Below, piece by piece: positions 9,685 through 53,764 of a stretch of DNA of 64,000 nt. The first letter of the stretch is position 1. Each line of letters opens with the position of its first letter. The DNA is from Bolinopsis microptera. Taxonomy: Eukaryota; Ctenophora; Tentaculata; Lobata; Bolinopsidae. The notes below the pieces were generated by a model. That model was not told where the DNA came from, searched no databases, and saw only the letters and a list, made by a program, of their open reading frames with translations. A program made the position numbers and the translations under genes. The stretch spans positions 15,908,983-15,972,982 of the forward strand of contig NC_087077.1 of assembly GCF_026151205.1 (NCBI RefSeq), written 5' to 3'.

Positions 9685-9807
9685 CTACCAGTCTATAGGA
9701 CACCATCCAGCGATTTTGAAATGGTCTGGGACTTTATTCCATGTACGCGTAGCATTTACGCCTTCGGTGATGTGATTTGGGAACGGTTCTTCTTGATACA
9801 CGACGTC

Positions 9808-16002: not shown

Positions 16003-18874
<2,872 letters not shown>

Positions 18875-20381: not shown

Positions 20382-20635
20382 CTGTGTGAAATACAGGTGA
20401 TGGATCCATCTTGTTTTTTCGCTTAAAACATAAATAAGCAAATCATAAAACGTATAGCCATGAGACACACAATTAGCTGGCAATGCCTGATCATGACTAC
20501 CCATACGTGATTGAAGCGCTTTATGATGGTTGCAGCTATTGATTGGATTATTTCTATTAGCACTGTGGAAATTTTCAACATGTTATCATCACCATATATC
20601 TGTTTAATGTGTAAGTGTTAAAATTAAAAGCTTAC

Positions 20636-31900: not shown

Positions 31901-34900
31901 ACTGACCGGCTTCTTCCGTTTCTAACGTCATTGAACTTAATGTCTACTTCCAGATAGTAAGATTCAGATTCAGCCACTAACGAAGCACTCTCCTTTGCCC
32001 CTATGGAGATCAGCATTATTATTTTGGAATGAGATAATTCTAATAACTTCGTCAGCCAAGGATTCAATTAATCGATATCGCACAATACACTATAGTTTTG
32101 ATAATTCTCTAATCAACTGTGTCACAAAATTTCGAAATTTGGGAGATTCCCAAGTTACCAGTTCACTCCTAGAAATGAAATGAAGATAGAAACTAACTAA
32201 CTAAACACAACACTGTCATACATGACCAGTAACCATAGTAACCATAGTAACCAGTCACTGAAATGTTATCAGTTGTGTTTACCTGGCATCATGAACGCAA
32301 CTAATGTCTTTTGTTCGGCTGGTATGATAAGAGTGCTTGTTTGATTTGTACACTTTTCTCCGTTCTCATCAAATACCAGGTCAGCATTCCCACACCTGTC
32401 CTTTTGCATGAACCCTACCATCTCTTCCGTAATTTCACCTAATAAAATACAATCACGTGAGATGACGTCATCATGTGAGATGACGAAATCACGTACATGA
32501 GCTAACATTTAAGTACACGGTAGTCGGTAACCAAATGTAAATCTGGCGTCAGTTTCATAACCTACCATCTTCAACATGGCCATTGAAGCGTAGAAATGAT
32601 TGAGTTGCTTTTTCTAAATCATTCTGATCAAACTTTGCTCTTTTCTTTGTTCTCTCTCTATCTCTTGAGGGTGCCTCCCCGGCTTTCTCATCCATGGTAT
32701 TATCTACATAACCTTTTGGACGATAACATGTTATGAGCAAACTTGTACACTTCTCTTTGTAGTTATTTTGGAATTTTATGATTTTAAACTACGTGGTTTT
32801 ATTTTCTCTAGATGTTCCCGGTATTTAACTTAATTAAGAGTTTTACAAAGCAATAACCAGTAACCATAGTAACCAGTTTTACAAAGCAATGATAATATTT
32901 ATGATCATATTTACGATCGTCAATCAGATATTAGTCTCACCAGCAAAGGCAAGGAAGCCAAGAGGAGTTTTAGTTGCATTTGGGAGATTCCCAATATCTT
33001 GTAGAACTTTAATGGGGATAGGCTCTTCGATTGTGACCACTGCAATTTTAACTCCTGAATTTAATGTTTATTAGCGTTTGCAGAACATATTTCAGGTTAG
33101 AGACTTGAAAAACGAACGTGAATAGTGGGCTCAATTTCCACGAAAAGTCAATATGCATCATCCTAAGAACTATGAAAAAGAGCACACCATAACAATAGCA
33201 TAATAAAGTTTTACCGTCTGCTCGCTCCTCTATTTCAGGTTCCATATCCGGGACCCTAAACGGTGTCTTGGTTTGGACAGGTGCTTGGGTTGGGATAAAC
33301 TCTCTTTCTTCCATATTAGGGATTGTTGGGGCGACTGAAATATCAATATGGATATCAGGACTCAGGAGGCCCAGAATTAAAAGAAGATTAATGCTAATAA
33401 ATAAAATATCAAGTTATCATGGATGTAAGCCTCTGACAATAAGTTAATAGAATGTAACTACGGTAACCAAGGTAACGTTACCATGGTAACTAACCCTCCT
33501 CTTCAATTCCAAAGACCAAAACTCTGGCCACTTTCATGTTCTTGCTGGATGATTGTATTTTCACTGCATGTCCCAGTAAACTATCGTTCTTAATAAAGAA
33601 TTTAAAATAGTTGTCAGTTGTATTAACAATTAACACTTGAAGATTGGCTATTATTCATGAATATTGAATATTATGCGAATATTTTGTGAATTTATCATCG
33701 TCTCTTGAAGTATAATCTGCTATTTAGAAGGTAATGATTGTTCTACCACCTGACATCTATTAACCAGTCAGTTTGTAGCACCAAACAGTCACATATAATA
33801 CCGTCAGCGAGCCCCTCATCTCAGCTGTTATTGACAATAAACTTTAAACACATTACTCTTACCGTTCGGCAGTGGATCACATAGCGTGTCATGGACTGGT
33901 CTTCTAGTTTTCCATCTGCAACCCCACAGTAGGACTGTCCCACATATAAAACCGCATCTTTAATCGTCGTTAATTCGCTCTCATCATCTGGAGCATACAG
34001 CTCTATCTGGGATAGATACTTTTAAGAACAGAGCCCCTTTATAGACTTTATAGACTTTATAGACTTTATAGACTTTATAGACTTTATAGACTTTATAGAC
34101 TTTATTATAGACTTTATAGACTTTATAGACTTTATAGGATACTGGATAAGTATCCGAGACTTTCCAAGTGCCGAGATGGTATTTCATAAATTAGAATCCA
34201 TTTTTATAAAACCTACCTTGGTAATCTTGGATTGCTTCTCGAGTGTAACAGTCAACCAATTGTGACTTGCAGCAAGCTGGGCATATGTACTGTCTCCGGA
34301 GAGGCAATCCTTAGCATCCGACTTATTTCCACCGGTACTTTTAGGCTGATCCAAGACAGCGCCAATTAGAGTTAAAGGTGATTCTGGAGTGATATTCAAA
34401 AATGTGAGCTACGGATTGTGGCTTTCAGAAGTAATGGTAGTGTGGAATATAACTCAAAATGTCTTCCAATTTGTTGGTTCTATATTGTTTTGTTGTTGTC
34501 GTTATTATTGTCGTTATTATTGTCGTTATTATTGTCGTTATTATTGTCGTTATTATTGTCGTTATTATTGTTGTTGTTCTTGTAGTCTGTGATATCATGA
34601 TGTTGCGTGAATGTGCTTTCAAAGGATACAGTTCCCTGACACAACGTTCCATAATGCTTCCTGTGCTTCACTATAATCAACATCGGGTCTCCGGATCTCT
34701 CAAATGCTGTGTGAATTTCTATTGGGCGCTGCAAATATTTGTATCCCCCTAGAAAAATTATCTGATTATTTTACTGCATGAACTTTATCACTCCTACTCT
34801 GAAGAAAAATGCGCTCAGACAACACAAAGTTGAAACCGCGAGTCCACCATAAACTCGTGGGTTTTGTAAAGTTTTAAATGTATCATGCTTCACAGTTTAA

Positions 34901-37481
34901 ACATAATGCTTAAAATGTTCCAAAAAGTTTTTGTAAGAATAATCTGACTTCAGCAAATACCTTGAATTCCAGTTATAACTATCTCATGAAGCAGCAGCAT
35001 GGTTTTAGAGTGTTTCTTTGATAAAGATATCCTGTCCCCATATCCATCGCAAGTAAATCTGGGGGATAATGAGGAAATGGTCACAGTTGAAATGGTCACA
35101 GTTGAATGCTTATTGCTTATTAAATAATACTACAGGTTTATTGACAGCTCTCTCCCATAAACAAACTTCCTTACTGACCAGGTCTATGAAAATAAAACGC
35201 TCGTGGAACATTTGCATCTTATAAACCCGCTTAGTGTGCTAGCGTTGGAGAAAACCAAATCAGTAAATGTTTACAAAATCATACTCCAATCTATAACCAA
35301 TGTCCTATACCTGTAAACCTGATCCTGCTGTCTGAGTCCATGTCCTTGCACGAGTGTACCACATCTCTTAACAAAACTTGACCCTTGGTACAGATCCACA
35401 TCAACAAAGGACATCTCATCTTTACAGAACTTGTACGTCTTCTTGTTCTGTACACAACCCCACGTTTTGTTGAACCAGCTGGTGTAGTAGTAGGAATGTA
35501 GGGTCAACTGATTAGGATAAAGTGGCCTTGTTATCGGAAAAATAGAATATTCAGGTGAGAATTATCAAGTATTTAAACAATATCATGCGTTAAGTAGTCA
35601 AATCTTTTATTCATTTTCTGATTTGTTTATTTGAATGAAGTTTCGAATCATAGTACAGAGGGTTTTCTTGCAAAAAAGATCGGTACGGGTAAATGCCTCA
35701 CAGAATGGCTAGCCTCACAGAATGGCCAAATTTGTAAATGTTTTTGTAACTAATTTTTTATAAAAGACTGGTTTTCAAATTTTTGAACTAAGTTTACATT
35801 TTGGTGAGAACTTCTGGCACCAGTATGACAAAAGATGTTCAAAGAATAGTATTCATCAAACAAAACGAACATTGTTCAATATAGGAAGAAAAAAATGCTA
35901 AAATGGCTACACGCCTCACAAAATGGCCAAAATATGCCTCACAAAATTTGTTTTCAAATTTTTGAACTAAGTTTGCATTTTGGTGAGAACTTCTGGCACC
36001 AGTATGACAGAAGATGTTTAAAGAATAGTATTCATCAAACAAAACGAACATTGTTCAATTTAGGAAGAAACAAAATGTTAAAATGGCTAAACGCCTCACA
36101 AAATGGCCAAAATATGCCTCACAAAATGGCCAAAATTTAAAACTCCTTTTATTCAATGAAACCATAAGTCTAAAGTATTCACAAGCTATTTATCATACAA
36201 TAACACCCCAGATGGAGTGTTTTTACAGCCGAATGAAGGTTATAAATCATGAAATCAGGGAATATGAACAACGCCACACAAAATGGCCATTTTTGGTGTA
36301 GGAAATTATGCCCTTTTTATTCAGTTCTAAGAAATTTCACCTATATGGGGGTGTTAACAAGGCATATTAATACCAGCAGCATGCCTGAAACAAGAGCCAA
36401 AGGTTTTAGAAAAATAAAATTTTCTCGTTTTCTTTTTTTTTTTGCCATTTTGTCAGGCATTTTTTCTTTTTTGTGAAATAATTTTTCACAGCTCAGTTTT
36501 TTCGTGAGTTTTAGGTTATTACCCCATTCCTTAATAGGTTTTCTAAGAACGTGTGGTGATAGAAATTTAAAAAGTATCTCCATCAACAAAATTATAGAAA
36601 TTCAGATTTGGCCATTCTGTGAGGCATGTTTTTTTGGAGGAAGATTTTCCGGCCAATTTTTCTCAAAGAAAAAATGGTTATGAGATTAAATGAACCCCCG
36701 GGAAGAAAAATATGAGTGTCAACTTAGCTTCTTATGAGATAACAACTGGAATAAAGTGTGTTTTGTGACTTTGAGAGACCTTCCTTTTTTTTGGCCATTC
36801 TGTGAGGCAAATACCCGTATCACAAATATTAAAACTCACAGTAGCGATATAGACCACTCCACCAAACTCAGCCTGCCACCATAGCTCATCCCCGTGAGCG
36901 CTTCCATCCCACTTACTGAGCACTACCTCCGCTGCAACCCTCATATCATTGTCAAAAGCGGGTCCTGGTCCAGCTGTGTGGTATGCAGGGTTTATCTGGC
37001 GGGTTGTAGAGGGTACTATCTCTTGTAACTCTGGTAACTCTGGTAACCCTGGTAACCCTGGTCTCTTGTTGGTCCCTCTTCCGTGGGAACGAACTGTATC
37101 ATTTCCATTGAAGAAGGCATTATTTAGAAGAAGAGAAGATAAGTCAGAGGTGTTCCTATTCAGGAGATTTGAAGGCGGGAATATGTCTGTACCATTCAGG
37201 GCATAACTTAAAACAGCTGAAATGTTTAAAATTACTTACAAATTAAACCTCTTTAAAACATTTGGTTACTGATAGTTTTCACCAAGTAAAAGAGCTTCAA
37301 TTATTATCAAATCACCAGTGACAAGTGCCTTTGTTGAAGAAATGATAGATAGTGTCAAGTGAGGTCTCATTTGTAAAGGAACCTACCTGACTGTAATGCT
37401 TAACTCACCTGAACTGAGAACAACATCACTTTCCGCTAAAGAAATTAAAATATTAATAGCAAAAAACTTAACAAAAATCAT
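25985..37481 (-). CDS. MMP-B: secreted furin-activated matrix metalloproteinase
   Basis: Twenty exons, from 37409-37481 to 25985-26095, sum to 3,531 bases (1,176 residues). Start ATG 37479-37481 opens a signal peptide (MIFVKFFAINILISLA). Approximate residues: 20-250 and 250-383, two discoidin/fucolectin-like galactose-binding segments; 460-531, prodomain ending in cysteine switch RCGNADL (525-531); 532-737, insert; 738-741, furin site RRKR; 742-909, catalytic domain with HEIGHALGILH (864-874) and Met-turn at 882; 910-1176, hemopexin-like blades and FKIAGWC tail. Exons: 37409-37481, 36840-37216, 35311-35507, 34961-35058, 34217-34383, 33863-34006, 33495-33588, 33215-33334, 32941-33054, 32566-32712, 32283-32438, 31782-32000, 31440-31642, 30920-31107, 30459-30760, 30191-30319, 29385-29516, 28717-29111, 28326-28490, 25985-26095. 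It should act outside the cell on matrix or sugar-coated substrates; the substrate is unknown. Confidence 0.9.
26151..26275 (+). repeat. Dispersed repeat R1, partial copy
   Basis: TTACTATATATAAAGCGAGA followed by a GCAAAAACTGTGAGAGATAT block, matching 62932 onward. It is adjacent to E2, in the last MMP-B intron. Confidence 0.6.
26298..27898. mobile_element. Motif-array DNA element E2
   Basis: Starts GGACACGTTCATGAAAAGGT, then GGCACTAGAGATTGA, and ends with the inverse, TCAATCTCTAGTGCCACCTT then TTGAACGTGTCC. It is flanked by TTAG on both sides (26294-26297 and 27899-27902). Inside, the motif TGTGATTTTTGAATCATTTT followed by GGCACC, or its inverse, recurs near 26440, 26790, 26968, 27110, 27219, 27298, 27410, 27498, 27547 and 27696. 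No ORF of note. It lies in the last intron of MMP-B. Confidence 0.8.
28326..29516 (-). other. MMP-B hemopexin-like exons
   Basis: Exons 29385-29516, 28717-29111 and 28326-28490. Blade signatures are ECHSQIDAAVRV.DFAYIVSGP, IEALFIV..FALYAGNLIARYT, IKGAFAYGADKTILVADNQ and EAFNAAMTL. The frame is intact throughout, in contrast to MMP-A. The repeats follow the hemopexin pattern (acidic residue, Ala-Ala, aromatic, G) only loosely, so the assignment rests also on position after an MMP catalytic domain. Confidence 0.7.
29582..30104. mobile_element. TTAA-flanked foldback element T2
   Basis: 523 bp between TTAA at 29578-29581 and 30105-30108. Inverted repeats of about 150 bp (29582-29735 and 29951-30104) start AGGGGGCAGGGGGGG or its near inverse, leaving a loop of about 215 bp. 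It is related to T1 at 13108. It lies in the MMP-B intron between the zinc-motif exon and the first hemopexin exon. Confidence 0.8.
30191..31107 (-). other. MMP-B furin-site and catalytic exons
   Basis: 30920-31107 (RRKR site, then start of the mature enzyme), 30459-30760 (most of the catalytic domain, ending AAHEI) and 30191-30319 (GHALGILHSQQQDALMQPGY). The three zinc histidines, catalytic Glu and Met-turn are all present, so the enzyme should be active once the prodomain is removed. Confidence 0.92.
31257..31397. mobile_element. MITE-like element M2
   Basis: Ends GGGGTCGTTCACACATTACG and the inverse, GATTACATAATATGTACGAA with CGAC; related to M1 (14407-14689). It has an internal C run and lies in an MMP-B intron. 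Confidence 0.5.
31440..32712 (-). other. MMP-B prodomain, cysteine switch and inserted region
   Basis: 32566-32712 (NDLEKATQSFLRFNGHVEDG) and 32283-32438 (KDRCGNADL) give a standard MMP prodomain end. 31782-32000 and 31440-31642 then encode a region not normal for MMPs at this place (YYLEVDIKFNDVRNGRSRSV, PLEIVALRLMSGKLCAQFLT, GKEVAKTVYNTQLISS). It could be an extra beta-sandwich-like domain within the propeptide, since the furin site lies after it. Confidence 0.75.
34043..34137. repeat. 10-bp tandem repeat (TATAGACTTT)n
   Basis: About nine units with one small interruption, in an MMP-B intron. Confidence 0.95.
34496..34570. repeat. 12-bp tandem repeat (TCGTTATTATTG)n
   Basis: About six units, in an MMP-B intron. 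Confidence 0.95.
35684..36819. mobile_element. Motif-array DNA element E6 (GCCTCACAGAATGGCC family)
   Basis: Inverted ends TACGGGTAAATGCCTCACAG and, reversed, TACGGGTATTTGCCTCACAG, with a possible TA target. The motif GCCTCACAAAATGGCCAAAA recurs forward at about 35696, 35712, 35911, 35935, 36092, 36116 and 36270, and reversed (GGCCATTCTGTGAGGC) at about 36610 and 36793, with a weaker copy near 36440. An internal direct duplication of about 180 bp is also present (35780-35950 and 35955-36130). No transposase. It lies in the second MMP-B intron. Confidence 0.75.
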
Positions 37482-39032
37482 TTGAACAACTAACAACACT
37501 GCGAGCAAACACGCATATTCCAGTAATTGCAAGACAAGAATATATAAATGTCGTCATGGAAAGTGATTTATTAATTCTATACCTATTGAACAGTTAATTA
37601 TTTAATTAAGTGTTGCAACTGGTAAGTGGGTATACAATTCTAGTAATAAACTTATCATATCAGAATAGCTACGCCGCTCATGTTCAGTGCTCAGTTCTGG
37701 ATAAAAAACGATACAAATGTTTAGATTTGTGATCCTACTAACAGAAGAACTCTTCTCTTAGAAAATATAATCGTAACTATAATTTTGGCAGTTTATGTAT
37801 TTAATTTTGCGATACATTACAGTATGTGATACAGTAATGCTTTCTCGGCTGTGTAATTATCATTCAATTGACAATTTGTTATAATTTACATATCTTATAT
37901 GATATGAGTTCTTCGGTTTTGCCTAATTAATATGAGAATTGAGCCGTTATGCAGAATTCTGCGTGACTAAAAAGCGATAAAAGTTTTGAACCAATAGCCA
38001 GTCACATCGATCAAAATGAAACCAATTCTTATATCGTAGAACTATTGAAAGAATGTAAAACTTAACTGTATCATCAACAAGTTTATTCAAATCACCTGCT
38101 AAATGTAAAGCATTAACCTAAGAGGTTAACAACAACAAGGATATAGGCTGGGGGTCACGAAGTCAGTTTCAAGTTTGATTGTATAATTATCAATTTGAAT
38201 ACTATTTTACATGCAACGCTAAATACTTGATTAATTATATAAATTTAAAAATAAACTGATTGTAAACAACATAAAAAATTGACATTAAACGATTAAACAA
38301 GCAGTAGAAAACCAAAAGGAATCTTAGTGCACGAGTAGCGGAAAAGTAACGTAAACATACACAAACTAAGGAAAGGAGGAAGTAGGAAAGTGTAATACAG
38401 TGCTGAAGCAGTCTATTTGTGTTGCAGGATGAAATTTAAACGACCCTAATGAACACATCCGCTGTAATACTATCAATGACAGGAAAACGGCCCACAACGA
38501 ATATATTATAGTGACTACTGCTTTGGATAATCAAGTTTTCAACAGAACTTGTTTTAAATCATTTAGATACTCGGATATCTTTATAATGAGCTTATGAGAG
38601 ATTGGACTTTTATAGATATTTTATTCTTTGAGTTCGGACTGAAATGCCTGACGCGACACAAATCACAAGATTGCAAGATTATCCGGCTTAAAAGTTCTCG
38701 AAATATTTGAAACTCTGACAGAGAAAATTTCATGGCATTTAAGTGAATAATTAAAGCTGCAACATGTAAGTATTTATTGCTTGAACAATATACTACTGAG
38801 CTGAGATTATTTCAATTTTCTCAAAGAGGGCTTTTTGTAGAAATCAAGTTTTAAACAAAGTTTTAAAATATTATCACCGCTAACTACTCTACCCCATTAT
38901 AGAGATTTTATGACCCAACCGAGCAATATCGTGGAGTCCCCCGTAACCCAGCAACCGCCTAATTGGTCAACCTGAACCACGTGCCACAACCCCAACCCTC
39001 TGATTGGTTAATGTGAATCGCGTGATCTCTTA
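37482..39032. promoter_or_regulatory. Shared upstream region of divergent MMP-B and FAM227-like genes
   Basis: 1.55 kb between the two start codons, which point away from each other. It is AT-rich with a less AT-rich end (38930-39030). It should hold both promoters, but I can assign no TATA box, Inr or specific factor site with confidence. Confidence 0.4.
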
Positions 39033-42000
39033 ATGGAGGTTAAAAAGCAGGTGGTAAAGCCGTCAGTGTGGAACTTACTAGAACGTAAGATAGCACCATT
39101 ATGGGTTAATGATGATCGGGAGGATGTCATATTAGCAAAGATACAGAAGGAGGAGGCAGAAGAGAGGGAACTCGCCAAGGCTACACGTGAGTTCTTAGCG
39201 TTCGCTTTCACTTTCACTTTCACTTCAAGTTAAGGTTTTCTTTTCCCTAGTATTTCGCCAATGGAAATACAAGATATTCGACGGATTTGGATATTTACCA
39301 ACGGAATATAATTATAAGTAGTGAGAGAAAAACACGTGGTGTCAAACAATTGCACGTCTCAAACAACTGTTTATTGCATAACATTTTATTGTACATCTGA
39401 TTAATCAGATTGCGGTTTAATTGCAATAAATTGCAGGCCAATAAAGAATTGGAAGTGAAGGTAAAAGTAAACTCGCAACATCAGTAAACTAGAAACATCA
39501 CAATAGTTAATTACGATTTATGACACGCACAACAGATACACCATTTCGTCAAAAGTGCAGTGCAATTCTGATAAGTGCACAACAATTAACAATAGCACAG
39601 AAGAAACTTATATATATTATCGGTCAGGCCCGATTGCATGCAGTTCTAAAACCGCGCGCAAATACTTTTAAACTGTGCACGTGAGCTCATCTGTTAGGTT
39701 CACCTAATGGTTAAATAGAAGTGCATGTGAGATGCAAGTTGATCGACTTTGGGGTCAACTATTGAATACTTCTTCAGCTGAGTACCTGTTCTATGAATAG
39801 GTACTCAGCTGAAGGAGACAATAAGCCATCATGCTACATGGAGCAGTCTCCTCCTCCTGGCTCCTAGTCGTTATTGTCACTCTGCACACCCACCACATGT
39901 TCCTAATACATTCTAACTGCAGCGTCTTCTATCTCGTACATACTTGTTTATTAAATCTGCACTGTCTCTCGTTGTTTAGTGTCTCATAGTCTAGCTTTTA
40001 GGGCAACTTCAAAATGTTTCGTAACATGATTCGTATTTACAAACTTAATTTGTTTGTTAGTATTAGCAAACCCGTTGGTTGAAAAAGAACTAAACACTTA
40101 AACAGTCAACGTCGGAATTTTATTTACTGTTGGGATGTCAATTTCCTCACCAACCCAGCCACATTCTAGAGCTGATAGATAATACCTTCAATAACACGTG
40201 ACAATAGGTAGACATAGTAATATCTGTCCTAAAATGCTTACTTTTATAGTTATTCTCAAAAACTGATTTGTTTCGTTGTTGCTCTGGAAATCATGAAAAA
40301 TACAGGTATGTGGTGTATCGGGTTAAGCCTTGAGGCTTTTATATGAGGCTACATAAGATGCACTAATAACTAGATTGTTAACGTTTTTGAGGTTTTGACG
40401 ATAAATTTCGCACACCAAAAAGATACATTGTGTGAGGCCAATTTAAGTACCATATTTTGATTGTTATTATTTTACTGTCAGTATAATTACAAATAACAGC
40501 TAAAACAAGGAGACAAAATTACTGAAGGAATTACATTGTAGTTCGGAATTATATGTAGTCCGAGGAGTCCTCCTAACTCTCCTCGCGTCCTAAGATGGCG
40601 TTTCTCTTGTGTCATATACAAACAAATAAACGAAAATTAGTTACACTAATATTATTAATTTCAGCTCAATACCAGATTGGGAACATGAGGGATGTATGCA
40701 GAATGTTGATAGACCAACACAAGGAACCAAAGTTAGACTTTGCACCTCAGCAAACTAGGAGTAAATCTAAGATAGAGCAGGAGGAACAACAACAGGTTAA
40801 TAACCGTAACGATTATTTAACTTTTGAGTATTTCACTGGAAATCATGACTGAAGAAGATCACACATTTTCCGGTTAGCAAAGGAACGGCGGTATTATTAA
40901 ATGTTTAAATAAGCTATTTTCCTTTTGGTGGTACTAAGAAACAGGATTTACTTCATCAAAAGTTTAATAAACATGCTCATTGCTCATGCTGTTTAAGAAA
41001 TTATGAAAATATGAAACTACATAATATGTCATGGCTAAAGTTACTGAATTACTGAGACAATGAGAAACCGCGAAGCCTTTTTAAGGGTGTAATTGCAGAA
41101 TTACGAACAATGAACACAAGACTAAAAAACCGCCCCCCCCCCCCCCAATATGTTAGCATGTTCACTCCGCAGGACACAGGACTAAATCCTCCCCCCTCCT
41201 CCCCTTCCCCAAATATGTTCACTCCGCAGAACACAGGACTAAATCCTCCCCCCTCCTCCCCCCCCCAATATGTTAGCATGTTCACTCCGCAGAACACAGG
41301 ACTAAATCCTCCCCCCTCCTCCCCCCCCAATATGTTAGCATGTTCACTCCGCAGGAAACAGGACTAAATCCTCCCCCCCCCCCCCCGCCCAATATGTTCA
41401 CTCCGCAGGACACAGGACTAAATCCTCCCCCCTCCTCCCCCCTCCCCAAATATGTTCACTCCGCAGGACACAGGACTAAATCCTCCCCCTCCTCCCCCCC
41501 CGGCCCCCCCGGCCCCCCCAATATGTTAGTATGTTCACTCCGCAGGACACAGGACTAAATCCTCCCCCCTCTACCCCCTCCCCCCCCCAAATATGTTCAC
41601 TCCGCAGGACACAGGACTAAATCCTCCCCCCTCCTCCCCCCCCAATATGTTAGCATGTTCACTCCGCAGGACACAGGACTAAATCCTCCCCCCTCCTCCC
41701 CTTCCCCAAATATGTTCACTCCGCAGAACACAGGACTAAATCCTCCCCCCTCCTCCCCCCCCCAATATGTTAGCATGTTCACTCCGCAGAACACAGGACT
41801 AAATCCTCCCCCCTCCTCCCCCCCCCAATATGTTAGCATGTTCACTCCGCAGGAAACAGGACTAAATCCTCCCCCTCCCCCCCCGCCCAATATGTTCACT
41901 CCGCAGGACACAGGACTAAATCCTCCCCCCTCCTCCCCCCTCCCCAAATATGTTCACTCCGCAGGACACAGGACTAAATCCTCCCCCTCCTACCCCCCCG

Positions 42001-45000
42001 GCCCCCCCAATATGTTAGTATGTTCACTCCGCAGGACACAGGACTAAATCCTCCCCCCTCTCCCCCCTCCCCCCCTCCCCCCCCCCCCCAAATATGTTCA
42101 CTCCGCAGGACACAGGACTAAATCCTTCCCCCTCCTCCCCCCCCAAATATGTTCACTCCGCAGGACACAGGACTAAATCCTCCCCCCTCCCCCCCCAAAT
42201 ATGTTCACTCCGCAGGACACAGGACTAAACCCTCCCCCCTCCTCCCCCCCTCCCAAATATGTTCACTCCGCAGGACACAGGACTAAATCCTCCCCCCCCT
42301 CCCCCCCTCCAAATATGTTCACTCCGCAGGACACAGGACTAAATCCTCCCCCCTCCTCCCCCCCAATATGTTCACTCCACAGGACACAGGACTAAAGAAG
42401 CTGATATTTGTGGAGATGGAAGAATACCCGGGTTTCTTTGACACCCCCTGTGATCTGCCCCAGAAAGTAGAGACTCAGTCCATTATGAGAATTGTAACAT
42501 CCTCCATCAGAATCACTGAGAAGGTATGTGCTAATGAATACTCATTTACAGTTACACGAAGGAATTTCCGAAAATATCTGTAGAAGTGGTGGAATGAGGT
42601 TTAATGTTAATGATTGAGTGATCACCCCCCAGCTAACGAGACTTTAGTGATCTCTGAGATTCATCTTTTAGCACTTTAACTGCTTCCTAAACTGCTGTTT
42701 TTACTTTTGATATTACAGCCGGGCCTGATGAGGGAGTGGAAGGATTTCTTCTTTTCTGAAGAAAGTCAAGACATTCTTCACGACCTATTCTGGTGGTTCT
42801 TCCTCAAAAAGTAAGTCAATTTGAAACACCAGTGGATCAGTTGCGTATACTTTTAGACTTGAAGAATTTGAAATTTTACTGATACTAAAAAAACTCCAAA
42901 TAATTGCCAAATCTGTAATATCCATTAATATTAAAGACAACAAGAAATGCGGCCGCTTTTTTGTGTGGATGGCCGCTCAATTTCCCGATCCGTGATGGCG
43001 TATTTTATCATATTCCATACAACCTGGGGACCCCAGTTTTTACTGTTTATAAGCATGCAGATATGGCGGAGTGACAGGCCGAGCGCGGAGCGCCACCAAG
43101 TTAATATAATTCCATATTGAATTTTAAAATCGTGTATATTTCTATGTAACCATCTGCTTATTGTTTATGCAACCTGACACCCGACACGGATCTGTGCAAA
43201 ATAGTAATAGTAACTCAAAATAATAATAACGCTATCAAGGGAAGTTGGTCGTTTAGCTCCGGACAGTCTATGCAACGTCTATGCAACGTCCGTGCAACAA
43301 CAAAAGAACCGTCTATGCAACGTCTATGCAACGTCCCTGCACAATGAACACTCTATGCACACTCCCTGCACGGTCAGTCTATGCAACGTCTATGCAACGT
43401 CTATGCAACGTCTATGCAACGTCCCTGCACAGTACCATATGAACACCGGCTACTAGCCGGCTATTAGCCGGCTAGTAGCCACTTTTGTAATAACAGCTCC
43501 TCAACTTCACATTACCAACCGGCTACTAACCGGCACTTGAAAAGTGGTCACTAGCCGGCTACTAACCGGCTACTAGCCGGCTAGTGACCACAAAGTGGCT
43601 ACTAACCGGCTACTAAGCGGTCACTAGCCGGCTATTAGCCGAGCTCTAAAGCAGACCTATTAGTAGCCGGTTCTAAACCGGCTACTAGCCGGCACTTGAA
43701 AAGCGGTCACTAGCCGGCTACTAACCGGCTAGTAACCGGCTAGTAACCACCAAGTGGCTACTAACCGGCTACTAACCGGTCACTAGCCGGCTCTAAAGCA
43801 GACCTATTAGTAGCCACTTGGTGGTTACTAGCCGGTTAGTAGCCGGTTAGTAGCCGGCTAGTGACCGCTTTCTAAGTGCCGGCTAGTAGCCGGTTTGGAA
43901 CCGGCTACTAGTAGGTCTGCTTTAGAGCTCGGCTAATAGCCGGCTAGTGACCGCTTAGTAGCCGGTTAGTAGCCACTTTGTGGTCACTAGCCGGCTAGTA
44001 GCCGGTTAGTAGCCGGCTAGTGACCACTTTTCAAGTGCCGGTTAGTAGCCGGTTGGTAATGTGAAGTTGAGGAGCTGTTATTACAAAAGTGGCTACTAGC
44101 CGGCTAGTAGCCGGTGTTCATATGGTACTGTGCAGGGACGTTGCATAGACGTTGCATAGACGTTGCATAGACGTTGCATAGACTGACCGTGCAGGGAGTG
44201 TGCATAGAGTGTTCATTGTGCAGGGACGTTGCATAGACGTTGCATAGACGGTTCTTTTGTTGTTGCATGGACGTTGCATAGACGTTGCATAGACTGTCCG
44301 GAGTTAAACGACCAAGTTGCCGCTATCAATTAGTGCCTAGTGGGATATGTACACATGTGAAATTAATAATGTACTTAGTCAGTTCAGCGCCAACAATTAT
44401 TTAATTCAGATTATTACGCAAAATAACTTTGCGCAGGTAGTCACGTGGGCGATAACAGTGCGCGAGGGCACGTATGTACGCTCGCACGCTCGCACGGTCG
44501 CAAGCTACCATATAATACAAAAAAAAACCTCGTTCGCTAACCCTTGTCCTTGACTCTTTTGTGCCTTCGGCACTTTGAGTCATGGATCGAGAAAAATGTT
44601 CTTTTTTTTTGTTACGTACATAATGATTCCCACATTGGTTATCTAACGATTTTACTGAATAGGGCAATTTTCCTAATTCGAAACAAAATAAAGTCAAATT
44701 TTACATAATATTATGATCGTAAACTTCCCTTTTCTTTACTTTTTTCCCTTTCTTTTTTACCCTTTTTCCTTTTTTACCCCTTTTCTTTTCCCTTTGGCTT
44801 ATCATTTCTGTATCTCCTAATATCAGCACAGTCTTCAAGCTTCTTCAATAAAGTCGTCAAGTGACGACAAAGTCTAATGTCTGTTGCAGCACTAAAAGGA
44901 TACATAATTACTGTACACTTTACTCTTGCTCTTGATATTGCAAAGTATAAATTCTCTAAATCTTCAGAGTGCTCTCTGCCCACATTATCTTCCCCTGATT

Positions 45001-48000
45001 CACCAAATATAGTGCTCATCCCCCAAGTAAGGAGTGCAATAACTGCTGGCCACTCTGCAGAATACGATGACTTCAATTCCTTAGATTCAATGTCTCTTGA
45101 TTGTAACATATCATTGGTGAGTTCTGCAGTGAAATTAATATATTCATTACGAACAACTCCCACGACATTTCTATCTAGTATATTATCACCGCATAGTTTA
45201 TCCAATTCCTTAGCGACAATGTCTGACATCAGCTTGTCGTGACCGGTTTCTAAAAAATGTATGACTGCTTTAGGTCCATGTATGTAATGACCGGGGGAGT
45301 GCGAAGGGAAAACATTATTCACATACTTTGTTTTGGTGTTCATCAGTCCAACTATATGTTCACGAATTACTGTCAAAGTGCCCGATAAATCATACGTATT
45401 TCTCAAGGTTTTCGACATGGTTGTAAGATGCTGGGAAGACATTCTTTCGTTAAATAATATTGCTATTATGCTATCTCCATCGTGAGTGCTTTCTTTACTG
45501 GCATTGTAGTTACATTGGACCATATCACACGCTACCCAGACATGCTGAGTCTTTGACAGTTCAAAGAGTGATTCAATGAATACGTATCCTTTCTCTTTAC
45601 ATCCTTCCACTCCATCCCAATTCATCACCACTTGAAAATCGTCGATAAATATTTTGATTCCTTGTAATGAAGTCAACAGTTTTTGCAACAACTCAGCAGA
45701 GGAACATCCTTGGTCAAAAGCATCGAGATGCTTTTCACTATATGGAAGCACAACTATAACCACTTGATGATCCACGAGATTTTTTAATACCTCACAATAA
45801 AGTTCCGACGGTGCATTATCCAAGCTTTTTTCCCACTCCTCCTCATTAAGTTCTTCCGCTCTAGCGTGAATTTCCAGGACATGAGGTCGTGACCGTGTAA
45901 ATAAGGTATTCGGGTCAGTGGCACATATGAATATATGCTTTACACCCGCCTTCTCGAGCGTCTTTTCCTGGCGTCTTGAGGGTTCAACATCTTCAATCAG
46001 TTTTGTAAAGTTGAACAGGACAGCTTTGTTGTTTCCATCCGACAATACTAGTTGTAGTATCTTTGCCATCAATACAACAGTTTTGCCTGTTCCGGCAGGG
46101 CCGTTGATGCACTGAAAAGTCTCAGTAGAATTAATCAAATCATATTGTTTCATATCCAAGTTGTCAACTCCCAAGAAGTTTCTGTAAAGCGGCGGTGTTG
46201 GGACAACTTCAGGGTTGTTCGTCCTGAAGGTGAATCTTCCTGATCGCAATTGCTCGTCAATGTGCAAGATGCATCTACCCAAACTGCACTTCGATTTATC
46301 ACAAGCTTTCTTTTTCTCGGTGCACCACATAGCGAGAAATAAGTTTCTAACTTCTTCTTGCTTGGTGCGGAACTCTGGACTCAAATTCATGACTAGATCA
46401 CTTACATTATCTTCCCACCATTTACTGAAGTCATCAATATCTTCTTTGAAAATGATCGTGGATTTATTATTTCCACTTATTTGGAAATCGTTCTTGAACG
46501 TTTTTTCAAGATTAGGGTAAGCAGTGAAGTGAAGAACTGTTAGGCGTTTACTGAATCTTTTTATCAGTTCTGCCATTTTCTTTCTTTGTTGGAGTGATTT
46601 CTTGAATGTGTTGGTCAGTGCTTCAGCTTGAAACTGCTTATCTTTGTCAGTGATGTCAGGATCAATATGGCTCATGTTCTTGACCTCGATGACGACAAAG
46701 CAGTTTGGAGCTATCACAACAAAGTCGCACTCGCCTTCTCTGTTAGCTGCCATCTTCTTACACTTTTGACACTTTCTTTTGTCATGACTTAAATCACCCA
46801 GATGGTATTGGAAATGACTATATTCAAAATTACTTAATACGATAATGTTTTTGTCCAGTTTCTCCAAAGCCCTGTACACTTTTACCTCAGCCTCATAGTT
46901 ACGTTGCTGGTTACGGTCGTTCTCAAAACTGCCGGTCCCGGGCAGATCTTGGTCTGGGTATAGGTCTATATACTTATGTTGAGGTGCTCTGGGAAACAAT
47001 AAGGGCTGTTTGTCTTCGGCTGTGCAGTACGTATCAAATATATCCTTTCCATTCCGTAGATATTTTTCATACTGCGTTTCATTCTTTGTCATAACAATAG
47101 TCGAACTCTCCTATAAAAATATGATTTTGTGGTGTTGATGAGTAATAATTATTGTTTTTCAGCATAATCTTGGATAACATTAAAGCATTAACAGTAATTT
47201 TTGATTGTATCTGGTCGAAGTAAACAATCTAATAATGGAAATTTTCTTTGGATTATAATAAACTATTTAGACCACCTGAACTGTTTTAAAAGGACAGTAA
47301 GATGAAATAAAAAAGTAAGATTAGATAAAAAAGAAAGAATACAATGTTGATGTTAACAAAACAATAATAAATGGAAATACAAGCTGCAACATATTGTGAC
47401 ACGGTTTAACTGATGGTCAGATGGTCCCAGACACACCAAACTGACACTCGGCCGCAAACACGTCAACATCGCCAAAACTCTTAACACTACTGCACTCAGC
47501 AAAAACAGACCAAATTACAGAACTTCAGTGCACTTCATCACGGAACATTATGGCTTAAACAAACACCTCCACACCATTCGCAAATCAAGCACCAGAGCTG
47601 ATTCTATAAAATTAAAAGTTGGAAACAACAAAATAGTGAATACGTGCAAACATAATATACCGAAACAATATATTGCACTCTTGTATGTAATTCAATCCAT
47701 ATCATGCATATGTTGTAAATCATGCATATGTTTTAAATCAGCATGATTAAAGTGCTGTATTGATGACATGGTGAGATTCTTCAAGTAATTATCTTAAAAT
47801 TAAATCAACGAATTTGTGGACGCTGATTCCGAATCACGTATAATTTCCAGCATAAGGTATTGGTCAGGGTAAAATTGTTTTATTCTTTCGGCTTTTCGGG
47901 CAATCTGCTCGAGCCATCTAAAACTTGTCACGATAGTCAATAGTATAATAAAGGGAATTGTATTATTATTAACCAATAACCAATAATTATCACCTGGTCT

Positions 48001-51000
48001 TATCAAATATCAATATCAGTATCCTTATACAAGCTTGAATATATATCAATATATATAATCAATATATTTTTGTACGGGGATCGGGATAAGTTCAATATCA
48101 ATTTTGAAAAAAAAAAAACATTTCGATAAAATGGAGTTATGAAAAAACAAATAATTCATACCTCAATATTTCATACTATACCTCAATGATCAAGTTAGTA
48201 AACCCCGTTGGTCCATTTTTAAAGGTGTACAAGACAGGTGTGTTCCTATTAGAGATCTCCAGAGTTCATCAGATACCAAGTGTTGTAATTGTTTATGGAC
48301 ACGTTCATTGAAGTTTGAGGAAATTGGTAAATTTCTAAAACAGCGTTTTTGACGATAGTGGTTTAATTTTAACATATATTAATCTAGCGTGTTCATAAGT
48401 TCTGAACATTAGCCACGTCACCCATACTTTCATATGAAATGCTCAAAAATAAAATATTGCTTTTAGGCACTATTATGTAAAAAATGTCACATTTTTGTGA
48501 CATTGTTTACCATAGCTGCCCAATTAGCATTTTTTGGTCTTAGATATAGTAGATTAGGTGAATCTAACAATTATGATACAATGTAGGCCTAAAGGGCAGT
48601 GATCGAACGGCTTTAAGGCAACATTTCGTAAACTTTGTCACACTCAGAATACGAGACCTCTTTTCTACTGTGAGGTGTCCATAAAACCCTTTCAACTCAT
48701 TATTTGATAGTTCTTCTGCTAATCATAGCCCTAAAATATGTTGTTTTGAAAAGTTAACTTGAAATACATGCACTTGGCTATTGGGAAATGATGTAAATTC
48801 TGTCACATTATATGGAATTTGAAATTCTGGGTGAATTTCCGAAATCATTTATATCTGATTTTGGTTTGGAAGGCGGGAAAACTCTATATAATGAGGACGA
48901 TACACGGATACAGTTGATTGAAGTATAGCCCGGCAGTTGATGTAAACATCGTCACAAAATGATACAAAATCGTAAATGGACACGTTCATGTTGAAGTTCA
49001 AGGATATTGGTAAACCAAAAAAAATAGCGTGTTCAGAAGTTCTGTACATTAGCCACGTGACCCATACTTCCATATACACGGCTCAGAAATACAATTTATT
49101 GTTTTTAGGCACTATAATGTAAAAAATGTCACATTTTTGTGACTGTGTTAACCATAGCTGCCCAATTAGCATTTTTTTGGTTTAAAATATAGTAGATTAG
49201 GTCATTCTAACAATTATGATACAACATTTGGCTAAAGGGCAGGGATCGAACGGTTTTAAGGCAATATTCCGTAAACTTTGTCACACTCAGAATACGATAC
49301 CTCTTTTCTACTGTGAGGTGTCCTCAAAACCCTTTCAACTCATTATTTGATGGTTTTTCTACTAATCATAGCCCTAAAATATGTTGTTTTGAAAAGTTAG
49401 CAAATACATGCACTTATTGGGAAATGATGTAAATTCTGTCACATTATATGGAATTTAAAATTTTGGGTGAATTGCCGAAATCATTTATATCTGATTTTGG
49501 TTTGGAAGGCGGGAAAACTGTATATAAGGACGATGCACGGATAGAGCTGATTCAAGTTAAGGGCAGTTGATGTAAAAATTGTCACAATAATAATAAGGGC
49601 AGTTGATATGAAAGAAAATCTATCTAACTAATGCAATGGCTGATGTGACGAAATTTACATTTCTTGACCCTATTTTGAAGAAACATGCCTCGATTACAAT
49701 TCAATATTCTTCCAGGAATTATTAGTAGGTTATTATTCAGCAAATCAGAACTCAAGTTTAACAATTCTGAGTTTAATTTTACTGAGTTACCGAAATGTGA
49801 CGAAATTCACTTTTCCTGCCCCAACAGTATAATTTCAATGTGATGAAAAATGGGCATGGGTTTCTATATTTCCTTATCTCTGAATTAATCATTTCAAACT
49901 ATAATTAGGACTGTTGATGTGAAAGAAAGTGTATCTAAATTTTACAATGACGTATGTGACAAAATTTACATTTCTTGACCCTATTTTGAAGAACCATACC
50001 CCGATTAGAATTCAATATTCTTCCAGGAATTATTAGTAGGTTATTATTCAGCAGATCATCAGAACTCAAGTTTGACAATTCTGAGTTTAATTATACTAAG
50101 TTACCGAAATGTGACGAAATTTACTTTTCCTGCCCCAACAGTATAATTTCAATGTGATGAAAAATGGGCATGGGTTTCTACTTTCTATATTTCTTGTATA
50201 AATCCATTCCAACTATAATAAGGGCAGTTGATATGAAAGAAAATCTATCTAACTAATGCAATGGCTGATGTGACGAAATTTACATTTCTTGCCCCTATTT
50301 TGAAGAATCATACCTCAATTAGTATATAATGTGACTTTATTATCATCACTATGTCGATAAATTAGTTATTTTGCCAACACGGAGCAAATAAAGTTATAAT
50401 ATTTTTTTGTGACGAAATTTACAAATTTTTACCCTGTTCAGGTGTTGAAATTTATCCAATGTTGACATATCACTGCCATATGATAATTTATATGACCGGC
50501 GTATGGTTGAAATATTGTTAATTGATCCATAGTACGTAATATAGGGTGTTTAAGTTGGTATACTAATATTTACTCAATTTCACACATGTTGAGATATCAT
50601 ACAAATTTATGTGACTAAATTTACCTATTTCTGCCTTCTGTATCTGTATTTGCGTATAACAAATATATGAAATATGTGAACAATTCCAAACATATTCAGC
50701 TCACAAAATAATGCTAGACTATTCGGCATTTCTTGTCAGGATGTCATAAACATCCCTCATATAAATTTATTAAATGTGTGACGGAGTTTACATGGTGCTA
50801 CCATTTAAGAAAAAAAGTCGCTAAATATGTAGATAATAGTCATATACAGCTAATCTATGAATTGGAAATTCGAAAATTTGGTCAAACACGGCAACAAGGG
50901 GTCCATATAAACTCCGTCACGTTTTTATAGTGTGACAAAGTTTACAACTCACTGCCGGCCGCATTTAAGCGATATCTTATCGTCTGATAAAGATATCGTT

Positions 51001-53093
51001 ATGCGACAAAGTTTATCTAGAGGATGAAACGATTATCTTAGGGTGAGAGGGTTTATATAGTTTCATAGTGTGACACATTTTACATCATCGTGCCATTCAG
51101 TAGGGTAACTAATATTTACCAATATCCTCAAACTTCAATGAACGTGTCCATATACCTTACTCGGGAATATTATAACCGGGATAAAGTGGTGGATTTTGGA
51201 AGATTCCGCCATATTTTTCCCGGTCAAAAATTTTACCAGTCATAAAAATACCCGCCGACTCAGATTATGGGGTTCCAAGGGGGTCGTGATCATCATATTT
51301 TACCTGAAGTCTCATATGTGCTAGAGAAGACTTTTGAAGCAGTGGATGGAGGGCTGTAACTTTATTGGCGGTTGCTACCATAATTTCGTTATAAAAATCA
51401 CAATTTGGTTATAGAAATCAGATTTCAGGGTGGACCGTGATTCTCACTTCTCTTGCCCATGAATCAGTGAATCGTAGAGAAGAAAACGATTTATATGTTA
51501 TAGAAGAAAACGAAAATAATAATAATATATAATATATATTATAATAATAATGTCTCTAAAGATTGATCGCTTCTCGTGTGCAGTGTGTAGACTAAAGAAA
51601 AAGGGAGTTTTTCCCGTTAAAGTAACTTGTGGCCACATCCCGCTAGAAGTGAGTAAACTGTGCCACTATTTCATGGTCCACGGTGGATTGATTACTGGAG
51701 CAGTTGAAGATGCAAAGCCAAGACGTTCCCCAATACCAAGCGGTGGGCAGGAAATTAAGCTCCGGCTGACCTTCAGAGCAGTAGCCCCATTAGCGGACAA
51801 AATGAAAGTCTTGTTAAGACAACAATACAACTTCGAATTTGAAGGTCAGCAGCAGGGGGATATCAATCATGATAATGGAGGGGACATTAGCGATAATGAG
51901 AATGAGAATACGCTTTAATGAAGATTTGACTTATTATTGCTATAGATTTATTTTCCTTTAAATACTAGACGTGTCTTTTTTTCTATTTCTGAGTAATATC
52001 AGTAACTAAAATTGAAATAACTTCTTTAACAAAAACAGAAATTTCGGTTGAAAATTTGTTGACCTCTGAAAAAAAAACTTGAAAGGTCGGCCACCGGTAA
52101 ATACATGACCGGGATAATTTGGCGGGTTTTGGGAAAGTCCGCCATATTTTTCCCGGTTATTAATTTTCCCAGTCATAAATTAACCCGCTATAATATTCAC
52201 GAGTAAGGTATACAAATCAAAGTAACCTTCTAGAATTCGTATCGGGGCATAATACAGGGTGGGCCAAAAGTCAGTGGGCATACGTTGGACTTAATAGCTC
52301 AGTCACTAATTGCCCAATTGAAATAATTCTTTCTGGTATGACTTACTACCACCACTGGTTCGAGGAATTTGTCATAACGGCTGAAAATTTAAAGAGTTCT
52401 TATCTCTCGATTACAGGAATAACATTATGTTCGGTAGCAAAGTAACAGAGTACGTGGATGAGCAAACGAAAAAACTAAAAATGTTAAAATATGTTGTTAA
52501 CATTTCTTAAAATGTGAAATTATTAAACAGTAAACACAACTGAAAACCAAAATCAAGAAAAAAGAAACGAGTAGTTACTACTCGTGATGAAGCTTTTTTA
52601 AAACGACCATCAAAAACGCCAAGGGCGATTATTTCAAACTAGTCTTGACCCGGGAGTAAGACAGGACGACATCAGCTATCATTCATCCAGTTACAAGGGC
52701 ACTAAATACTGGACAACTTAACAAGTGGTTGATGACGTGAATTTTTCTAATTTAGGTTTCCGACAAAAAGAACGAGTCCAAATTCTCAACTTATTACAAA
52801 TAAGCGAGATTATCGCGAGATTGTCGCGAGATTATCGCGAGATTATCGCGAGATTATGAATTTCAACATGCTCTGACGCATGATAAATAGGAAAAACAAG
52901 AAAGCGAAACCTAACAACACGTAGCAGAACGGTAAATATTAATTAAATATTAATTAGAAAATGTCACCAGGTTCCAGAAGCCTCCCCCGGAGTCACTTAG
53001 CTTTGTTTATGAGCGGGAACTGCGTGAAAAAACATCACTTCTGTTCGGAAGAGTAGCAAGAACATACACCATGCTTCTGAACGGTACTTTCAG
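39033..53093 (+). CDS. FAM227-like (FWWh domain) protein, 3' end uncertain
   Basis: Exons 39033-39186, 40665-40795, 42383-42523, 42719-42810 and 52971-53093 splice in frame with GT-AG junctions. Exon 4 ends in DLFWWFFLKK and exon 5 continues KFQKPPPESLSFVYERELRE then KTSLLFGRVARTYTMLL; this 'FWW ... F' pattern is the signature of the FWWh/FAM227 family, a metazoan family of poorly known function. Exon 1 begins MEVKKQVVKPSVWNLLERKI at the first ATG after the upstream region shared with MMP-B. The five exons give about 214 residues, versus some 500-570 in vertebrate FAM227 proteins. A candidate next exon at 57396 stops after 13 codons. Introns 2 (minisatellite) and 4 (10.2 kb with a nested antisense gene) are unusual. 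Confidence 0.7.
41122..42382. repeat. Minisatellite made of duplicated 3' splice sites
   Basis: About 21 units of 50-75 bp, each with a C-rich tract (CCCCCCTCCTCCCC), then AATATGTTCACTCCGCAG, then GACACAGGACTAAATCC. The last, at 42361-42397, is the true acceptor of exon 3: TTCACTCCACAG followed by GACACAGGACTAAAGAAG. A higher-order repeat of about 494 bp exists: units from 41161 to about 41560 recur in the same variant order from 41655 to about 42050. Its translated ORFs on both strands are artefacts. Confidence 0.9.
42811..43229. repeat. Intron sequence with dispersed repeat R2, copy 2
   Basis: R2 occupies about 43020-43095 (AACCTGGGGACCCCAG ... GAGTGACAGGCCGAGCGCGG). The rest of this stretch is unremarkable intron. 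Confidence 0.55.
43239..44320. mobile_element. 1.08-kb foldback element with internal tandem arrays
   Basis: The whole element is a near-perfect inverted repeat with its centre near 43780. It is flanked by a 9-bp direct repeat CGCTATCAA (43230-43238 and 44321-44329). Outer arms carry TCTATGCAACG units (with TCCCTGCAC variants), inner arms carry CCGGCTACTAG/CCGGCTATTAG units. Ends are GGGAAGTTGGTCGTTTAGCT and, reversed, GCAACTTGGTCGTTTAACT. No ORF. Foldback structure with a 9-bp duplication is seen in Mutator-like and foldback transposons. Confidence 0.9.
44774..47092 (-). CDS. NERD nuclease-related and SF1 helicase-like protein (single exon)
   Basis: An intact intronless frame of 772 residues. 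Residues 60-195 look like a NERD (nuclease-related) domain, with GECDFVVI (120-127) and VVIEVKN (133-139), the D and E-x-K expected of this restriction-endonuclease fold. C-terminally there is a superfamily-1 motor: P-loop GPAGTGKT (331-338), Walker B-like IFIDDFQ (481-487), VACDMVQ (520-526) in motif III position, KTLRNTYDL (561-569), EWPAVIALL (680-688) and motif VI YFAISRARVKCTVI (716-729). A Cys cluster (CQKCKK, 108-113; a second at 264-274) may bind metal. The tail is Lys-rich. NERD-helicase fusions are best known in prokaryotes, often linked to DNA processing or defence; the cellular role here is unknown. It lies antisense within the FAM227-like intron, 453 bp from the foldback element. 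Confidence 0.85.
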   Translation of the reverse strand: MTKNETQYEKYLRNGKDIFDTYCTAEDKQPLLFPRAPQHKYIDLYPDQDLPGTGSFENDRNQQRNYEAEVKVYRALEKLDKNIIVLSNFEYSHFQYHLGDLSHDKRKCQKCKKMAANREGECDFVVIAPNCFVVIEVKNMSHIDPDITDKDKQFQAEALTNTFKKSLQQRKKMAELIKRFSKRLTVLHFTAYPNLEKTFKNDFQISGNNKSTIIFKEDIDDFSKWWEDNVSDLVMNLSPEFRTKQEEVRNLFLAMWCTEKKKACDKSKCSLGRCILHIDEQLRSGRFTFRTNNPEVVPTPPLYRNFLGVDNLDMKQYDLINSTETFQCINGPAGTGKTVVLMAKILQLVLSDGNNKAVLFNFTKLIEDVEPSRRQEKTLEKAGVKHIFICATDPNTLFTRSRPHVLEIHARAEELNEEEWEKSLDNAPSELYCEVLKNLVDHQVVIVVLPYSEKHLDAFDQGCSSAELLQKLLTSLQGIKIFIDDFQVVMNWDGVEGCKEKGYVFIESLFELSKTQHVWVACDMVQCNYNASKESTHDGDSIIAILFNERMSSQHLTTMSKTLRNTYDLSGTLTVIREHIVGLMNTKTKYVNNVFPSHSPGHYIHGPKAVIHFLETGHDKLMSDIVAKELDKLCGDNILDRNVVGVVRNEYINFTAELTNDMLQSRDIESKELKSSYSAEWPAVIALLTWGMSTIFGESGEDNVGREHSEDLENLYFAISRARVKCTVIMYPFSAATDIRLCRHLTTLLKKLEDCADIRRYRNDKPKGKEKG
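47093..47402. promoter_or_regulatory. Upstream region of the NERD gene
   Basis: AT-rich 5' flank on the minus strand. It presumably includes the promoter, but no defined motif can be named. Confidence 0.3.
47403..47620 (+). pseudogene. LINE RNase H-type fragment
   Basis: An open stretch reads GRKHVNIAKTLNTTALSKNR, then HFITEHYGLNKHLHTI. The 'h.TgH.gLN.HLh.i' pattern is the usual end of the RNase H domain of LINE and other retroelement polyproteins. The Cys-rich motif that normally follows is not seen. It is a fragment inserted in the FAM227-like intron. Confidence 0.5.
47621..48296. other. No gene seen
   Basis: AT-rich sequence with a small duplicated block (ATCATGCATATGTT, near 47700-47730). 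No exon recognised. Confidence 0.35.
48297..51149. mobile_element. Motif-array DNA element E3
   Basis: Starts GGACACGTTCATTGAAGTTT, then GAGGAAATTGGTAAA, and ends with the inverse (TTTACCAATATCCTCAAACT, then TCAATGAACGTGTCC). The motif TGTGACGAAATTTACA, usually followed by TTTC.TGCCCC, occurs forward near 49643, 49795, 49947, 50108, 50268, 50408, 50609, 50774, 50927, 51002 and 51066, and in reverse (TGTAAA.T.TGTCACA) near 48490, 48630, 48790, 48943, 49116, 49270, 49427 and 49567. The left half contains a direct duplication of about 615 bp, the right half duplications of about 305 bp. No coding region. Confidence 0.8.
51153..52210. mobile_element. TA-flanked DNA element E4 with a small ORF
   Basis: Inverted ends TACCTTACTCGGGAATATTA and, reversed, TACCTTACTCGTGAATATTA, flanked by TA on both sides (51151-51152, 52211-52212). 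Subterminal blocks include CCGCCATATTTTTCCCGGT in direct orientation near both ends. It abuts the right end of E3. TA targets are typical of mariner-like elements; no transposase is seen. Confidence 0.7.
51550..51918 (+). CDS. Small unknown protein with N-terminal Cys motif inside E4
   Basis: An intact 122-residue single-exon frame. The N-terminus has FSCAVCRLKKKGVFPVKVTC then GHIP, i.e. a CxxC, a third Cys and a His, possibly a small zinc site. The middle is basic and the end acidic (DNENENTL). No family is recognised. It lies wholly between the inverted ends of E4, so it may be the element's own protein or a captured gene. Its codon use looks ordinary and the frame has no stops, which argues for coding, but 122 codons is not decisive. 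Confidence 0.5.
   Translation: MSLKIDRFSCAVCRLKKKGVFPVKVTCGHIPLEVSKLCHYFMVHGGLITGAVEDAKPRRSPIPSGGQEIKLRLTFRAVAPLADKMKVLLRQQYNFEFEGQQQGDINHDNGGDISDNENENTL
52211..52970. other. Intron sequence before FAM227-like exon 5
   Basis: Contains a possible terminus of a small DNA element near 52258 (AGGGTGGGCCAAAAGTCAGT). An 11-bp tandem repeat (GCGAGATTATC, about five units) lies at about 52803-52857. Confidence 0.5.
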
Positions 53094-53764
53094 GTAAGAT
53101 TACATAGCAGATCCTATTCATGTTTTTATGTTAACACGAAGCCAATATAATTAATGATGCCATCATCGCAGCCCGCTAGTTTCACTGCCTCTTAATATTG
53201 CCTAGTCACTGTGGAGGTCATCTTTCTGTGTCTTATATTACTGACCTGCTGGATGGTTGAGATAATGTGACCCAAAATAATCAGGAGAATTAGAAATATG
53301 CTGATGTTTGTTTGTTTGAAAACCAGTTTTTGCTGGTACCCATAAGGGCTTTGGAACCAATATATAATAAATTGTATGAATAAATCAAATCCCCGTGGGG
53401 CACGCGACATTCAAGATCTAGTTGCAAGCACATGTTATAAAACATTGTAAAATAGCCTCAAGACCAGAACTGCATATTGCTTGGGCTTCCAGCCCAGTTT
53501 GCTCAACAGTTCGTGGCCTACTTACCTAACTTAAAACCTTAGTGCAATGCTTGCAACAACTAAAATCCTATTCTATAACTAAGTTACCCTATTACGTATA
53601 ATCTAGAAGAGTGATGCAAAAAGTCAACTGATAACGCAACACAGTCTAATCATACTCTTATCAGTAGTTCCTCTAACCTCTGTTCTCAGTTATACAAAAA
53701 GTTTTAACTCCATGAAATTAACGTCACACACATACACAAATGCTTGACTTTCTCAAATAATTAG
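53094..53764. other. No gene seen
   Basis: Sequence downstream of FAM227-like exon 5. No exon or clear repeat recognised. Confidence 0.4.

Follow-up and report, generated by a model that had tools for sequence, protein, structure and literature searches.

How is an intron spliced when its 3' splice site is preceded by some twenty near-copies of itself? The question is raised by a 64,000-nucleotide stretch of the genome of the ctenophore Bolinopsis microptera (RefSeq assembly GCF_026151205.1, contig NC_087077.1, positions 15,908,983 to 15,972,982, forward strand; hereafter the window), in which intron 2 of a FAM227-like gene ends in a minisatellite. Positions 41112-42382 (1271 bases) comprise a decayed unit followed by 20 acceptor-like units in tandem, and adjoin the genuine exon 3 acceptor. 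A preliminary description of the locus had proposed just this, a minisatellite of copies of a real 3' splice site that runs into the genuine acceptor; we confirmed it, with 20 upstream units plus the acceptor at 42383, and the coordinates and unit count first given were right to within about 10 bases. We consider it probable that the array is a boundary-spanning minisatellite (a 'mirage') that is nearly neutral for splicing and unstable in length, and that its last acceptor is the one used.

The motif CACTCC[G/A]CAG occurs 21 times in positions 41101-42400, once in each of the 20 upstream units and once at the genuine acceptor. The tandem array itself lies at 41127..42382 on the plus strand and contains 20 upstream acceptor-like AGs, each placed between a C-rich tract and a copy of the exon start. 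Both Tandem Repeats Finder and reading of the sequence itself gave a C-rich minisatellite that extends to 42396. Measured from AG to AG, the upstream units are 52-79 bp long (n = 20). They start with GACACAGGACTAAATCC (exact in 13 units, with a one-base difference in the other seven), contain a C-rich tract of 16-38 bases (76-89% C) and end with AATATGTT...CACTCCGCAG or a near-identical sequence. Downstream of the acceptor, 19 of the 20 units read CTAAATCC and unit 18 reads CTAAACCC. An extra TTAG is present in seven units, 16 bases before the unit end. The copied exon start also supplies each unit with a CTAAA that resembles a branch point and lies 39-66 nt upstream of the last base of the CAG. 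In its anatomy every unit looks like a complete 3' splice site and is, in that sense, a putative acceptor.

The repeat unit therefore spans an exon-intron boundary, placed here by reading frame and phase: it consists of the end of intron 2 and the first 14 bases of exon 3. The last unit continues into the acceptor at 42383, so that the array abuts the genuine boundary of its own gene. At the other end, directly before the first unit, lies the decayed unit 0 (41112..41126, plus strand), which has lost its AG and is common to a second copy of the gene described below. It reads GAACACAAGACTAAA, and 14 of its 15 bases match the exon part of a unit, a score that was reached by none of 5000 mononucleotide shuffles of positions 40797-41132. 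The minus strand of the array holds eight G-quadruplex-type motifs and the plus strand none (the rest of the window has 0.08 and 0.05 per kb, respectively); this density would fit slippage-prone DNA.

The array also has an internal history. Units 1-8 (497 bp) resemble units 9-16, and when unit k is compared with unit k+8 (k = 1 to 8) there are 0, 0, 0, 1, 0, 1, 1 and 1 substitutions and 0, 0, 1, 0, 0, 9, 12 and 7 gap positions. This distribution of substitutions and gaps indicates that a block of seven or eight units was duplicated.

Which of the 21 acceptors belongs to the gene can be read from its exons, all on the plus strand. We identified the coding part of exon 1 at 39033..39186 (beginning MEVKKQVVKPS), with an open frame in phase with exon 2; exon 2 at 40665..40795, with the donor CAG/GTTAAT; exon 3 at 42383..42523 (beginning DTGLKKLIFVEMEEYPGF); exon 4 at 42719..42810, which carries the motif FWWFFLKK; and exon 5 at 52971..53093, the last exon found in the window copy. 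All five join in phase to give 213 readable residues. Exons 3 and 4 together match Pfam FWWh (PF14922; E = 9.7e-12, 45.5 bits against a cut-off of 25) over profile positions 3-58 of 150; FWWh is the domain of the FAM227 family. Intron 2 measures 377 bases to the AG of the first unit and 1587 bases to the genuine AG (42381..42382). The exon 3 frame is open only from 42287, and the AGs within it would place the first exonic base at 42330, 42337, 42383, 42390, 42398, 42401 or 42416. The phase of exon 2 is fitted by 42383, 42398, 42401 and 42416, the last three of which are not among the repeat acceptors but fall within exon 3. Of the 21 repeat acceptors, 42383 is the only one from which exon 3 stays open when read in the phase set by exon 2, which on sequence grounds marks it as the genuine acceptor. 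It had also been suggested that CTCCAC in place of CTCCGC distinguishes the genuine acceptor, a distinction that fails in the second copy, where the genuine acceptor reads CTCCGC.

None of the 20 upstream acceptors leaves exon 3 readable. Three are in phase and 17 shift the frame, and all of them meet stops, which corrects the earlier proposal that use of a unit would add codons for DTGLNPPP-type sequence or a frameshift. When arrays were simulated with changed tract lengths and unit order, 565 of 1000 likewise gave no readable acceptor. The all-stop outcome is therefore no sign of selection for stops in every decoy, and we rejected such selection as its cause. We also rejected recursive splice sites and unit-sized exons: the pattern GTRAG has no match in the 1271 bases of 41112-42382, and the two bases after every upstream acceptor are GA or AA rather than GT. 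Because the array lacks GTRAG, a unit is unlikely to serve as an exon of its own.

To place the array in its genomic context we searched 264.65 Mb on 232 contigs. The exon 3 query gave two matches, both 100% identical, the second of which (C6:16074607) belongs to a further copy of the gene 123 kb from the window copy on a 20.9-Mb contig. Upstream of exon 3 this second copy has a decayed unit (12 of 13 bases matching, not compared with shuffled sequence), then one unit of 64 bp, then the exon. Two copies of the same intron in one assembly thus carry 20 and one upstream units, respectively. A genome-wide pattern search with the unit core, allowing up to three mismatches and scoring the best candidates only, gave 24 matches: 21 in this array, two in the second copy and one, with three mismatches, on contig C8; the reversed pattern, used as a control, gave none. 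A dispersed repeat was rejected, as among the best-scoring candidates the unit core was found only in the two copies of the gene and at the one three-mismatch site. In the second copy the end of exon 2 and its donor are also duplicated (C6:16073994 and C6:16074109, donors 115 bp apart), such that its intron 2 has both splice sites repeated; the window copy has one donor.

The two copies lie in a duplicated segment, which we mapped by self-comparison of 229.7 kb using pieces of at least 400 bp. It extends, in pieces, over 8009..53305 of the window (plus strand) and corresponds to C6:16032615-16080884, with identities of the aligned pieces from 99.9% down to about 91%. About 70 kb of other sequence separates the two segments, and the 229.7 kb contain no N. 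Tandem-repeat rows in this region number 34 (period 20-200, at least 2.5 copies), of which three are the array; a separate array at C6:16092032-16092338 has 6.6 copies of a 47-bp unit.

The segment ends before exon 6. Homology to the second copy stops at window position 53305 and is followed by different sequence; exon 6 of the second copy lies at C6:16081372. In a Pfam search of the genome a single exon 6 match (FWWh positions 89-129) passed the cut-off; it lies in the second copy and crosses one TAA at its apparent donor. Two weaker matches, under the cut-off, lie elsewhere (C6:9895002 and C39:44783). Beside the window copy no exon for profile positions 89-129 was found, so that its FWWh domain is incomplete as found, and a FAM227-like query detected further exons of the second copy but, in the window, nothing beyond exon 4. 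Past the homology break, positions 53306-54304 include a minus-strand open frame of 179 aa (53765-54304) that may, as an impression, belong to a mobile element. A different FAM227-like gene at C4:13150465-13150896 covers FWWh profile positions 2-149 of 150 within one 522-aa open frame.

The two copies make it possible to ask whether the gene has been maintained. Over exons 1-5, with exon 2 of the second copy taken to the first of its two donors, 5 of 641 bases differ and all five differences are synonymous. Three of them lie in exon 1; exon 2 is identical up to the first donor of the second copy and the DNA of exon 3 is identical throughout. By simple counting there are 129 synonymous and 510 nonsynonymous sites, and the probability that all five differences would be synonymous without constraint is 3e-4. 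In the noncoding DNA of the gene 195 of 4313 sites differ (4.5%), leaving out one non-syntenic row (87 of 581), or 282 of 4894 with that row included. Synonymous divergence (5/129) is similar to noncoding divergence, and the exons have therefore not recently been made alike. With five differences and no nonsynonymous one among them, both copies, including the one that bears the array, were mostly under protein constraint. The array thus seems not to ruin the gene; the provisos are that it may have grown, and the exons from 6 on been lost, only recently, or that the two copies may be alleles.

That last proviso leads to the best-surviving alternative, in which a single, highly heterozygous locus is represented by both of its alleles, set in series by the assembly, and the array is an allelic length polymorphism of one versus 20 units. 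The constraint on both copies, the range of identity between aligned pieces and the finding of the gene's right-hand part next to the second copy alone all agree with this explanation. Its difficulty is the distance of 123 kb within a 20.9-Mb contig: some 70 kb of unrelated-position sequence separates the segments, and the 229.7 kb have no N. We regard it as a serious but lesser possibility, and it is compatible with a nearly neutral mirage.

A second alternative is that the window gene is a truncated pseudogene whose array grew in the absence of selection. Only exons 1-5 were found in it, the above-cut-off exon 6 match and the later exons given by the FAM227-like query belong to the second copy, and other sequence begins beyond 53305. 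Set against the noncoding divergence of 4.5%, however, the lack of any nonsynonymous change among the five differences speaks for a gene that was kept: had constraint been lifted from the window copy alone when the copies split, its branch should carry about 11.5 nonsynonymous changes. We judge a dead copy to be unlikely overall; a long-dead window copy is unlikely on the sequence comparison and a recently truncated one is possible.

The preliminary description had also raised splice slippage and a hypervariable splice regulator. In the latter, the number of decoys would set the share of premature-stop transcripts and so tune the output of the gene. Every unit has a pyrimidine-rich tract, a CAG and a branch-point-like CTAAA, every decoy leads to a stop, and the copies differ in unit number. 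In a fuller form of the idea, which we find about as improbable as the regulator itself, the array would act as a copy-number dial: the copied exon start would give each decoy its own branch point and make it a self-contained acceptor, more decoys would mean more premature-stop transcripts, and fast changes in repeat length would set the level of the FAM227-like protein. Human repeats at exon-intron boundaries can accompany alternative transcripts and new introns (PMC2812944). On the other side, stops in all decoys are expected by chance in arrays of this kind, the comparison is limited to two copies, and published mirages, in amphioxus globin, Adh and PGBD5 genes, are described as leaving splicing undisturbed (PMC3087553, PMC3902484). 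We hold a regulator to be very unlikely. Variability in length has indirect support from the two gene copies; the regulatory role and splice slippage have none, as the stops are no more than chance predicts and the coding exons are constrained.

Finally, an elongated exon 3 in which the array encodes DTGLNPPP-type repeats is hardly credible, for although portions of the array are covered by plus-strand open frames of 103 and 162 aa, a stop at 42284 closes the exon 3 frame, the unit lengths shift the frame, none of the 20 upstream starts reads through, and the assembly has no readable frame from the upstream edge of the array through exon 3.

The near-neutral mirage that we favour would have arisen as follows. 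The last ~40-60 bases of intron 2 and the first 14 bases of exon 3 were duplicated in tandem in an ancestor of both copies; unit 0 and at least one further unit, carried by both, show that this boundary duplication predates their split. The window array probably reached 20 upstream units through unequal exchange or slippage, to which its C/G-rich tracts would have contributed, and this growth would include the block duplication of seven or eight units that is seen in the array. Either the window array grew or that of the second copy shrank. Splicing would occur mainly at 42383 and yield an exon 3 of normal length. Transcripts spliced at an upstream acceptor would carry the early stops that we observed and would probably be degraded. 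The array would then be near-neutral baggage of varying length.

Several points weigh against this explanation. In-phase AGs are also present deeper in exon 3 (42398, 42401 and 42416), and both the use of 42383 and the expression of the gene are putative. The duplicated blocks differ by few substitutions, so that some of the array may have arisen too recently for coding constraint to be informative about it. The window copy yielded no exons from 6 on, so that constraint may have acted on it only in the past, or the copies may be alleles. The direction of change, growth or shrinkage, is judged from only two copies. Human tandem repeats at exon-intron boundaries often accompany alternative transcripts (PMC2812944), and for that reason neutrality should not be assumed.

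Intron 4 of the window copy holds two further features. A large nested inverted repeat at 43239-44321 has arms of 308 and 231 nt that are 98% complementary, with 11-bp subrepeats; it is missing from the corresponding position in the second copy and looks like a foldback-type mobile element. On the minus strand, a 778-aa open frame (44774-47110) includes a NERD domain (Pfam E = 2.6e-8) and has weak matches of helicase type; its counterpart in the second copy is an open frame of 777 aa.

The locus offers a natural experiment: the spliceosome would face 21 acceptors that lie one after another and are almost identical, and the second copy, in which this intron has few units, would serve as a control within one genome. 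What it can say about splicing hinges on RNA. Minisatellites that span a boundary have been proposed to give rise to new introns and alternative acceptors, and the array is a further clear example of them. The array belongs to a known kind, for which the name 'mirage' was coined in lancelets, and although unusual it requires no new category.

In the amphioxus globin gene BflGb6 an intron's 3' end and the start of exon 2 are repeated in tandem, in the manner of a minisatellite, with six and three units in two haplotypes and potential splice signals in the repeats, and RT-PCR suggests normal splicing (PMC3087553). The window array likewise repeats the 3' end of an intron and the 5' part of the next exon, and its unit size range resembles that of amphioxus Adh3 (10-72 bp) (PMC3087553). 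It differs from BflGb6, which has units of 150-160 bp and RT-PCR data, in its 20 units of 52-79 bp, in its C-rich tracts and in being known from DNA alone (PMC3087553). In lancelet PGBD5, Adh and TnC, tandem repeats include 5' or 3' splice sites, as the window array includes a splice site; the PGBD5 repeats, of 60 and 108 bp against 52-79 bp here, are reported to leave splicing undisturbed (PMC3902484). In human CBS, the 844ins68 variant duplicates the intron 7/exon 8 junction, and of the two sites splicing uses the more distal (the paper words the sites as donors), and a 31-bp variable number tandem repeat, c.1444_1467+7(16_21), spans an exon-intron boundary (PMC2630376). Both resemble the window array in duplicating or crossing a boundary, but 844ins68 has only two copies and the 31-bp repeat lies at an exon end, on the donor side and not at an acceptor (PMC2630376). 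Human genes in segmental duplications also have boundary minisatellites, whose number differs between recently duplicated copies as the unit number does here; those repeats can make new introns and often give alternative transcripts with RNA support, and the window array is a counterpart described from its DNA (PMC2812944).

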